Source of the DNA: Periconia sp. R9002
Lineage: Eukaryota > Ascomycota > Dothideomycetes > Pleosporales > Periconiaceae
Direction: 5' to 3'
Assembly: GCA_023627715.1 (NCBI GenBank)
Contig: JAMAHW010000033.1
Coordinates: 186,001-250,000, forward strand
DNA length: 64,000 nucleotides
The position numbers were made by a program, and so were the translations under genes. This document shows positions 42,762 through 44,648 of this stretch, one piece after another (position 1 is the first letter of the stretch; the number at the start of each line of letters is the position of its first letter). Under the pieces are notes generated by a model, which saw only the letters and a list, made by a program, of their open reading frames with translations, ran no database searches and was not told the origin of the DNA.

Positions 42762-42850
42762 AGGTCTTGGGCGGAATCGAACCGCCATTACTGGAACAAT
42801 GACTTCAAACAATTAGAATTCGATATAATGAGCTATTACACTACAACACC
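42762..42850 (-). pseudogene. tRNA-like sequence, probably a decayed tRNA gene
   Basis: On the minus strand a perfect T-arm is seen (GGCGG, loop TTCGATT, CCGCC). The 3' acceptor arm CAAGACC pairs with GGTGTTG at 42850-42844 except for one G-G mismatch. A TA and a GTGT D-arm start follow the acceptor at the expected place, but the D-stem does not close well. The anticodon arm can be drawn only with a mismatch and an intron of about 16 nt; the loop would then read CTA. A T-run on the minus strand (complement of 42734-42738) could end Pol III transcription. The poor stems suggest a pseudogene; identity is not assigned. Confidence 0.4.
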
Positions 42851-42993: not shown

Positions 42994-44648
42994 TTACAGA
43001 CTACTTTTTAAAGTCTCCCTTTCTTTCATGCCGCGGATCATTTCACATGCCGTGTCTAGACTTTTCTTCGCGTTGTCGAAGTAGAGATGTGAAAATTCAC
43101 TACTGGCCGAGCCGCTGATGGTCCGTGCTTGGATGCCGTGGGTAATAGTGGCACCCTAGTAAAATATAATCAGTACATGTTTGCGATGGAATTGAATTCG
43201 CTATTTCGTAGAAGTCTTTGCTGTGACATAATGGTGTACTATATATTAGAAATACGCTTCAAGAATCGGAACTCATTGAATTTCAATGGCCGGGTGGCGT
43301 AAGTTTCTTCATTCGACAAAGGGTTTCGAGCTGAAGACTAACGGAACATCAGGCAATGGTAGCGCGTGGCCCTCCTACTTCGATTGGAAAATAAAATCCT
43401 CTTGAAAGGCCAAGGTTGCGAGTTCGATCCTCGTCTCGGTCGATAAATGTTTTTTTGGTCCCATTGTTGGCTGAAAGGTGTGGAGTGGGTTTTGCGGTGT
43501 TTCCTTTTTTGTTACCCCTCAAATGCACCGAACCCCACTCCACTAGTTGCCCACATAGTCATAGACGTGAAAAAAAAAACTGGGTGATGGGAACAACGAA
43601 ATGGCACTTACCCGCATTAGATGGAACACTTTTGCAACTTTCCACCGGTCTTCCCTTGGATCCCATCCCGCTATTTTCGTGTACTCGTCTAACAATTCAT
43701 CCACGGCGGGCAACCCGCTTTCTCTCTGGTTTGCGGGATCATATACCTCACCGCCCTGGTCGTCTCTAGGTTTACTGGCTCCTGCCGACCGGTTCCAGTA
43801 CGGGCCAACAACGTAGACCACATCCATGAGCGGGTGTCCAATCGTGCTCAATTCCCAATCCAGAATTGCAATGACACGAGGCTCCGTAGGATGTAATATG
43901 ATGTTATCGAACTTGTAGTCTCCATGGATGATGCTATAACGGTCGCTAGGCACGTTGTGACGAACATAGTCTACTATCTCGTCGAATCTAGGGTGGGCCC
44001 GACCAAGTTCCTTTCCAGTTTTGATATCTTTGACTTTGGACTGCTGAGCTTCGATTCTGGAAAAAGTGTTGCAATGACGGGTGTAAAATCCCGTCTTTTT
44101 GCCGTAACCTTCGAGACCGATGGTGTCTGGGTCGATTGAGTGGAGCCAGGCAAGTGTTGATATCACAGAGAACCACGCTGCACGACGTTGTGTAAGTGGA
44201 AGTGTCGAGAGATTTGAGTCGGTGATTATTCGACCTTTGACGAATTCCATAACCTGCTTCGTGTGAGATGGCTTGAAGGTACCCGTGGTTGACACCATGG
44301 TAGCGAACTGACATAGAACGCTGTTCCAATGATTTTATCATCCATACATAAGCAGTACACCTTTGGAACTGGGAATCCTTCCACCGTTCCTAACGCTTTC
44401 AAGACTCTGTACTCACGGTCGACTTGATGTGCAACAGGGGAGATGATCTTGCCAGTTGGTTTCTTTCTCAAAATATACCTCGATTTCCTTGCATCATCGA
44501 CATAATAAGTGGGATTACTTTGGCCATACCCTATCTTTGTCGAAATTATTGGAAGTTGGAGATTCGCGATGTGTTGTTGAAGGTAAACTCCTAGAGATTC
44601 GTCATCAAGGTCATGCCGAGTCTTTGTATATGGACCGTCGTCGGACAT
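42994..44648 (-). CDS. Aminoglycoside phosphotransferase-like kinase (ACAD10/11 type)
   Basis: Three exons (44648-44313, 44253-43612, 43155-42994) join in phase to 379 residues. The APH fold is shown by the nucleotide-binding N-lobe (GYGQSNPTYYV, YILRKKPTG) and by the catalytic loop YSIIHGDYKFDNIILHP followed by VIAILDWELSTIGHPLMDV, which contains the Brenner His-Gly-Asp, Asn and metal-binding Asp. The last exon (GATITHGIQARTISG to MKERETLKSSL) lies 456 bp away. That final intron holds a tRNA gene on the opposite strand, so simple prediction would stop wrongly at 43543. Related proteins are the kinase domains of ACAD10/11 and stand-alone fungal homologues thought to phosphorylate small hydroxylated acyl compounds; substrate here is unproven. 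Confidence 0.88.
43288..43442 (+). tRNA. tRNA-Arg(CCU) with two introns, one spliceosomal-like in the D-stem
   Basis: The mature tRNA is assembled from 43288-43298, 43353-43377 and 43407-43442. The acceptor GGCCGGG pairs with CTCGGTC over seven pairs, two of them G-U. The D-stem is GCGC/GCGC with loop AATGGTA. The anticodon stem is TGGCC/GGCCA with loop CTCCTAA (anticodon CCT at 43374-43376). The T-arm is GCGAG, TTCGATC, CTCGT, and the discriminator is G. A normal intron of 29 nt lies after position 37 (43378-43406). The D-stem is split by a further 54 nt (43299-43352) with GTAAGT, an ACTAAC box at 43337-43342 and a final CAG. A run of seven T (43450-43456) follows as a Pol III stop. Orientation is opposite to the surrounding kinase gene. 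Confidence 0.8.
43299..43352 (+). other. Putative spliceosomal intron inside the tRNA gene
   Basis: This 54-nt insert starts GTAAGT and ends CAG, with an ACTAAC branch-site match 11 nt from the end. Length and signals match the mRNA introns in this window. Its removal rebuilds the tRNA D-stem and the Pol III A box exactly, and no other GT-AG choice does so. Confidence 0.65.
43450..43456 (+). terminator. Pol III T-run terminator of tRNA-Arg(CCU)
   Basis: Seven T residues begin eight bases after the tRNA discriminator base, the standard Pol III stop signal. Confidence 0.7.

Follow-up and report, generated by a model that had tools for sequence, protein, structure and literature searches.

Can a nuclear tRNA gene carry an intron of the kind that is removed from messenger RNA? 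The question is raised by a tRNA-Arg(CCU) gene of Periconia sp. R9002, which lies in the 64,000-nucleotide stretch of DNA analysed here (the window, C33:186001-250000) of a 42.9-Mb genome in 267 contigs. Canonical nuclear tRNA introns lie after position 37 and are removed by the tRNA endonuclease together with a ligase. The window gene has an intron of this type, and it also has a second insert, in the D-stem, with the splice-site and branch signals of an mRNA intron. An earlier note, made from the letters of the window, had proposed that this gene combines both types of intron.

Anatomy of the window gene

The letters and coordinates given for the gene in that note are all as described, as are the GTAAGT, ACTAAC and CAG signals, and the features are collected in Table 1. 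The D-stem insert has two equivalent placements, and the splice signals pick the one that begins with GTAAGT and ends with CAG. Lying between positions 11 and 12, it does not occupy the canonical site after position 37, which is taken by the separate intron at 43378-43406. Removal of both introns leaves a 72-nt product whose minimum-energy structure is exactly a cloverleaf (-28.1 kcal/mol). The predicted fold has 7, 4, 5 and 5 pairs and the anticodon CCU, and thus bears out the cloverleaf that had been claimed. Before splicing, the predicted fold of the precursor is no more stable than that of shuffled sequence (z 0.11).

It had also been expected that tRNA finders would miss or misjudge such a gene, and they do. 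In the raw window the gene was missed by ARAGORN and, at the gathering score, by Rfam, and ARAGORN found 0 genes in the unspliced piece. Once 43299-43352 is removed, ARAGORN does draw a complete tRNA, with the canonical intron in the wrong place and the name Trp(cca).

The insert also affects the internal promoter. The best A-box-like match that remains in the DNA, TGGCGTAAGTT, joins exon 1 to the start of the intron and is created by the 5' splice site itself. It scores 0.5; in 71 intact tRNA pieces the lowest score is 6.0 and the median 14.2. The earlier note was right that the insert splits the A box and leaves a weak remnant, but its choice of remnant, TCAG plus GCAATGG, has to be replaced, since that match scores -4.3 and the one formed by exon 1 and the insert start scores higher. 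Because the A box is broken and the remnant falls far below all 71 intact pieces, the window gene may be poorly transcribed, and its expression is the least certain point of the analysis. A TATA-type element was present within 80 nt upstream in 50 of the 71 intact pieces and absent in 21.

Table 1. Features of the window tRNA-Arg(CCU) gene, in window positions, and three insert-bearing tRNA genes on other contigs
Feature	Location	Strand	Description or basis
tRNA-Arg(CCU) gene, whole (locus L058)	43288..43442	+	cloverleaf once two introns are removed; paralog L052
Upstream TATA-type element TATATATTA	43240..43248	+	sequence, TATA-type search
Exon 1: acceptor 5' strand, T8 G9, D-stem bases 1-2 (tRNA positions 1-11)	43288..43298	+	sequence, paralog alignment
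Best remaining A-box-like match, weak: TGGCGTAAGTT	43295..43305	+	exon 1 and intron start; score 0.5
mRNA-type D-stem intron of 54 nt, GTAAGT...CAG, between positions 11 and 12	43299..43352	+	absent in L052
Branch-site-like ACTAAC	43337..43342	+	branch A to intron end 11 nt; splice-signal check
Exon 2: remaining D-arm, anticodon stem 5' strand, anticodon CCT, A37	43353..43377	+	sequence, fold
Canonical anticodon-loop intron, 29 nt, after position 37	43378..43406	+	fold
Exon 3: position 38, anticodon stem 3' strand, variable loop, T-arm, acceptor 3' strand, G73	43407..43442	+	fold
B box GTTCGATCC, intact	43422..43430	+	sequence, B-box pattern
T7 run, Pol III terminator-like	43450..43456	+	sequence
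Leu(CAA), L131	contig C93	-	52-nt insert GTGAGT...ATTAAC...CAG, D-loop
Val(AAC), L164	contig C36	+	55-nt insert GTACGG...ACTAAC...CAG, after position 25
Ala(CGC), L183	contig C180	-	54-nt insert GTAAGT...ATTAAC...TAG, D-loop

Inserts in other tRNA genes

A scan of the other tRNAs for mRNA-type inserts, which the earlier note had recommended, yielded four more genes: L052, which is a second tRNA-Arg(CCU), and the Leu, Val and Ala genes of Table 1. At least five tRNA genes of this genome therefore have an insert of 50-55 nt with the form GT...TAAC...AG outside the anticodon loop. Four additional genes with like inserts at other sites, three of them compared with uninterrupted paralogs, strongly support the reading of the window gene as one with an mRNA-type and a canonical intron. 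L131, L164 and L183 also carry a canonical intron; L052 does not.

The survey behind this count was partial. It covered 63 of 1247 Rfam candidates that were scored (59 of them Rfam matches) and a small number of B-box patterns, several of which found no more places than reversed controls did. Phe, for example, was not clearly recovered. In a cloverleaf scan with artificial deletions, the 112 B-box pieces whose T-stem was good divided into 76 that parsed intact and 36 that did not. Deletions of 45-80 nt rescued four of the 36. The window gene, L131 and L183 were rescued by deletions with the full intron signature among others, and L133 by other deletions only; the rescuing deletions total 168, 6 of which are GT..AG. 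The Val gene stands among the 76 intact parses through a spurious reading, and has an intron-signature deletion as well. A stricter first scan recovered 42 intact pieces and found an intron-signature deletion for the window gene and L131, though none for L183; its rule of four D-stem pairs excluded the Ala and Val families, and for this reason the scan was superseded. A canonical anticodon-loop intron was read in 61 of the 76 intact-parsed pieces, a seemingly high share in a set that includes a few spurious parses and a few mitochondrial pieces.

ARAGORN recognized a tRNA in all five spliced sequences and gave the right anticodon in three. Unspliced, four of the five drew a report; L052 and L183 received the right anticodon but a wrong arm, and two were misnamed. 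No T-loop interruption beyond that of L052 was found among the 64 of 71 pattern hits that were examined (the reversed control gave 44 hits).

The inserts share their signals and differ in their sites. All five have a 5' splice site of the form GT[AG]NG (GTAAGT three times, GTGAGT and GTACGG), a TAAC branch site whose branch A is followed by the intron end after 10-12 nt, and a 3' AG (CAG three times, AAG and TAG). By our reading, the five sites are all different: positions 11/12, 18/19, after 20, 25/26 and 53/54. Each insert has 1 to 4 equivalent placements, and uninterrupted paralogs fix the borders, to within 2-4 such placements, in four of the five genes, the exception being Ala. In every case the spliced exons give a cloverleaf, by ARAGORN and by reading. 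Among 3,000,000 random segments matched in length and taken from the sequence analysed, 234 had a laxer form of the signature (7.8e-5 per segment). The insert lengths lie close to those of eight mRNA intron candidates in the window that restore a reading frame (51-66 nt); because these candidates were chosen by like signals, length is the only property that compares independently. None of the five inserts contains TTTT, which is not discriminating as a Pol III signature because TTTT is absent from the mRNA intron candidates too (0 of 8).

The inserts do not appear to be recent copies of one mobile intron. This idea was rejected because the window, L052 and L164 inserts with their flanks, the three that were searched, matched only themselves in a genome search for near-identical copies that skips very common words. 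As for mutual similarity among the inserts, a first run gave 2 of 10 pairs at z 3.5 and 3.1, and a repeat gave a mean z of 1.15 with a maximum of 3.2, while a pair made of one tRNA and one mRNA intron reached 4.2.

The second tRNA-Arg(CCU) gene, L052 (C21:171737-171858; 45.7 bits as an Rfam match), has the same D-arm as the window gene, uninterrupted. Its 50-nt insert, GTAAGT...TCTAAC...AAG, lies at the border of T-stem and T-loop, between positions 53 and 54, and leaves AAGTTCGAGTCC, and the B-box core therefore survives. Because each of the two genes is uninterrupted at the other's site, both inserts are clean insertions. The earlier note had called for a search for a second, intact tRNA-Arg(CCU): a second gene is present, but it too bears an insert. 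An exact genome search with 14 bases of the shared D-arm found five places, namely the window gene, L052, Arg(TCG), Arg(TCT) and, by eye, one non-tRNA. A 20-base pattern across D-arm and anticodon, allowing 3 mismatches at most, found six, the two Arg(CCU) genes, three Ser(GCT) and Arg(TCT); the reversed control gave four. These two patterns found no uninterrupted and no third Arg(CCU) gene, and a strongly diverged copy could escape them. Of the 422 Arg codons in 11 of the 12 listed window ORFs, 42 are AGG.

The stems of both Arg(CCU) genes appear to have been maintained. Five base pairs differ on both sides between them with pairing kept, compensatory changes that could predate the inserts. 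Four Arg tRNAs (the two Arg(CCU), Arg(TCT) and Arg(TCG)) were aligned, L041 after its canonical intron had been trimmed by eye. Pairing holds in 84 of 84 stem cells, and both sides have changed in 13 of 21 pairs. No shuffle of 500, in a procedure that ignores relatedness, was as high in covariation.

Paralogs are also informative for the other genes. Outside the canonical intron, the Leu gene differs from the uninterrupted L075 by one exon base. The exons of the Val gene show 0 differences over 74 bases from those of L160 and L165, and 2 from each of L161 and L162, and its canonical intron differs from those of L160 and L165 despite the identical exons. The Ala gene has no close uninterrupted paralog. 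The nearest seen, L148, differs in the D-loop and several exon bases and is too different to fix the insert, whose border is therefore placed by the signals and the cloverleaf. For Val, Leu and Ala, other uninterrupted genes with the same anticodon are present. B-box cores and T-runs are kept in the insert-bearing genes, the T-run of the Val gene beginning 32 nt downstream, and a full A box is kept in four of the five (all but the window gene; scores 11.5-15.4). The search used found no TATA-type element at L052 or the Val gene.

Proposed spliceosomal removal and its alternatives

The 54-nt insert is likely a U2-type spliceosomal intron in a Pol III tRNA-Arg(CCU) gene, one of at least five genes of this kind. 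Transcribed by Pol III, the window gene would yield a two-intron precursor. In the nucleus, the spliceosome would recognize GUAAGU, ACUAAC and CAG and join 43298 to 43353, which would restore the D-stem. The tRNA splicing endonuclease and ligase would then remove the canonical anticodon-loop intron from the folded precursor. We infer the transcription, the spliceosomal splicing and the order of the two reactions; the spliceosome is placed before the endonuclease because the tRNA endonuclease requires the mature tRNA fold. Since at least five tRNA genes, including both that were found for Arg(CCU), carry mRNA-type introns, maturation of these tRNAs probably needs the messenger-RNA splicing machinery.

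Intron-like DNA might instead have landed in tRNA genes and never be removed, which would make the five genes dead copies. The weak A box of the window gene and the decayed tRNA-Gln-like sequence that adjoins it would fit such an origin, as would the missing TATA-type element and distant T-run of the Val gene, and the uninterrupted same-anticodon genes available for Val, Leu and Ala. A dead copy, however, has no need for splice and branch sites at the ends of its insert, and these are present in five of five, as are exons that form a cloverleaf. The Val exons have stayed identical to those of L160 and L165 while the canonical introns differ, both Arg(CCU) genes found are interrupted, and five compensatory pairs separate the latter, though their inserts could be younger. 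We regard decay as rather unlikely. Far less credible is a chance arrangement of an unrelated GT-AG segment next to a half-tRNA-like sequence. Deletions that are not introns also yield a cloverleaf (at L133, and many at the window gene, L131 and L183), but nothing in the five genes themselves speaks for chance. Coincidence is made very improbable by L052, the same tRNA with an uninterrupted D-arm, and by a signature that is rare in random segments and occurs in five of five inserts.

Two other routes would accept the inserts as introns and assign their removal differently. Archaea and red algae have ectopic tRNA introns with a bulge-helix-bulge (BHB) motif at noncanonical positions, several of which may occur in one gene, and positions outside 37/38 are thus known in other lineages. 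A review of disrupted tRNA genes is available (PMC3978253). The present inserts resemble them in lying at noncanonical positions. Those introns are endonuclease substrates, whereas the inserts have full GT-AG signals and no BHB helix: under the 4-bp rule for the central helix, intron and exon 2 form 1 or 2 of 4 pairs in all five. The eukaryotic enzyme tolerates relaxed structures, and this count is therefore not final, yet the GT...TAAC...AG signature is unexpected for endonuclease introns. Judged from these motifs, removal of the new inserts by the endonuclease is unlikely, and we give it very little weight. Scarcely more weight goes to splicing on occasional Pol II read-through, with the Pol III transcript left unspliced and the tRNA supplied from elsewhere. 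Spliceosomes do usually act on Pol II transcripts. The genes have nevertheless kept their B-box cores, T-runs and, in four of the five, full A boxes, and in fission yeast an mRNA-type intron is removed by splicing from U6 RNA, which Pol III makes (PMC10484740). Spliceosomal removal from the Pol III precursor remains the reading that we prefer.

Relation to known introns, and neighbouring sequences

The new inserts differ from canonical tRNA introns in lying in the D-arm or T-arm and in having splice-site and branch signals. The Dothideomycetes, the same fungal class, are known for introner-like elements, through which short spliceosomal introns have recently been gained; unlike these, the three inserts searched have no similar copy in the genome. 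The comparison of the Val gene with L160 and L165 may show an intron gain caught shortly after the event.

The closest known relative is the intron of the fission yeast U6 snRNA gene. A passage of PMC10484740, citing Tani and Ohshima 1989, 1991, describes this mRNA-type intron in Schizosaccharomyces pombe and gives reverse splicing as its proposed origin. The two cases are alike in placing a spliceosomal-type intron in a small noncoding Pol III RNA of a fungus. U6 is a single snRNA gene and itself part of the spliceosome, whereas the tRNA genes comprise several isoacceptors with inserts at different sites, and their Pol III promoters are internal and so can be divided by an insert. Spliceosomal introns are also reported from fungal nuclear rRNA genes in a passage of PMC11782384, whose reference list has Rogers et al. 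1993. These too, as presented there, are mRNA-type introns in a structural RNA, but rRNA is a Pol I transcript and the present RNAs would be Pol III tRNA precursors. No report of spliceosomal introns in tRNA genes was found in the open full-text literature, a body that leaves subscription papers and preprints mostly or wholly outside.

The introns of tRNA and mRNA are treated as belonging to separate splicing worlds, and tRNA genes with both would mean that Pol III tRNA precursors can be substrates of the spliceosome. It seems likely that Periconia sp. R9002 belongs to a lineage in which the spliceosome is a regular tRNA-processing enzyme, with several intron gains in tRNA genes and all Arg(CCU) genes found dependent on it. 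AGG decoding would then be coupled to pre-mRNA splicing, because every Arg(CCU) gene found would depend on the spliceosome. Such genes would offer a natural way to ask if splicing requires a 5' cap or coupling to Pol II. Paralogs that share identical exons but differ in having the insert would serve likewise for the question of how introns are gained. Some tRNAs would be missed or misread by standard gene finders.

Several other sequences were noted during the survey. The tRNA-like sequence at 42762-42850 (-) of the window is a weak match (31.6 bits) and is called Arg(tct) by ARAGORN; by eye it is a decayed tRNA-Gln resembling L064. Its differences from L064 are mostly G-to-A and C-to-T (RIP-like), its acceptor has a mismatch and its anticodon loop reads CTA. 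L133/L168 (C117:64489 -) and L081 (C21:134543 -) are tRNA-like genes that start with GGGCYGGTAGTTCAG and have odd anticodon arms. L133/L168 has internal tandem repeats where an anticodon-loop intron would sit, and L081 adjoins a second, similar 3' half. L053 (C19:499973 -) is a tRNA match that is rich in AT and mitochondrial in appearance; its contig is not C137, and it may be a mitochondrial insertion. Among the T-loop pattern hits, L204, L205, L207 and L208 belong to a diverged dispersed repeat family that shares about 200 nt upstream of YAGTTCGAATCCT. The window also holds a Trm5 ORF whose best named match is from Periconia digitata, with 87% identity; the next named matches are from Pleosporales.
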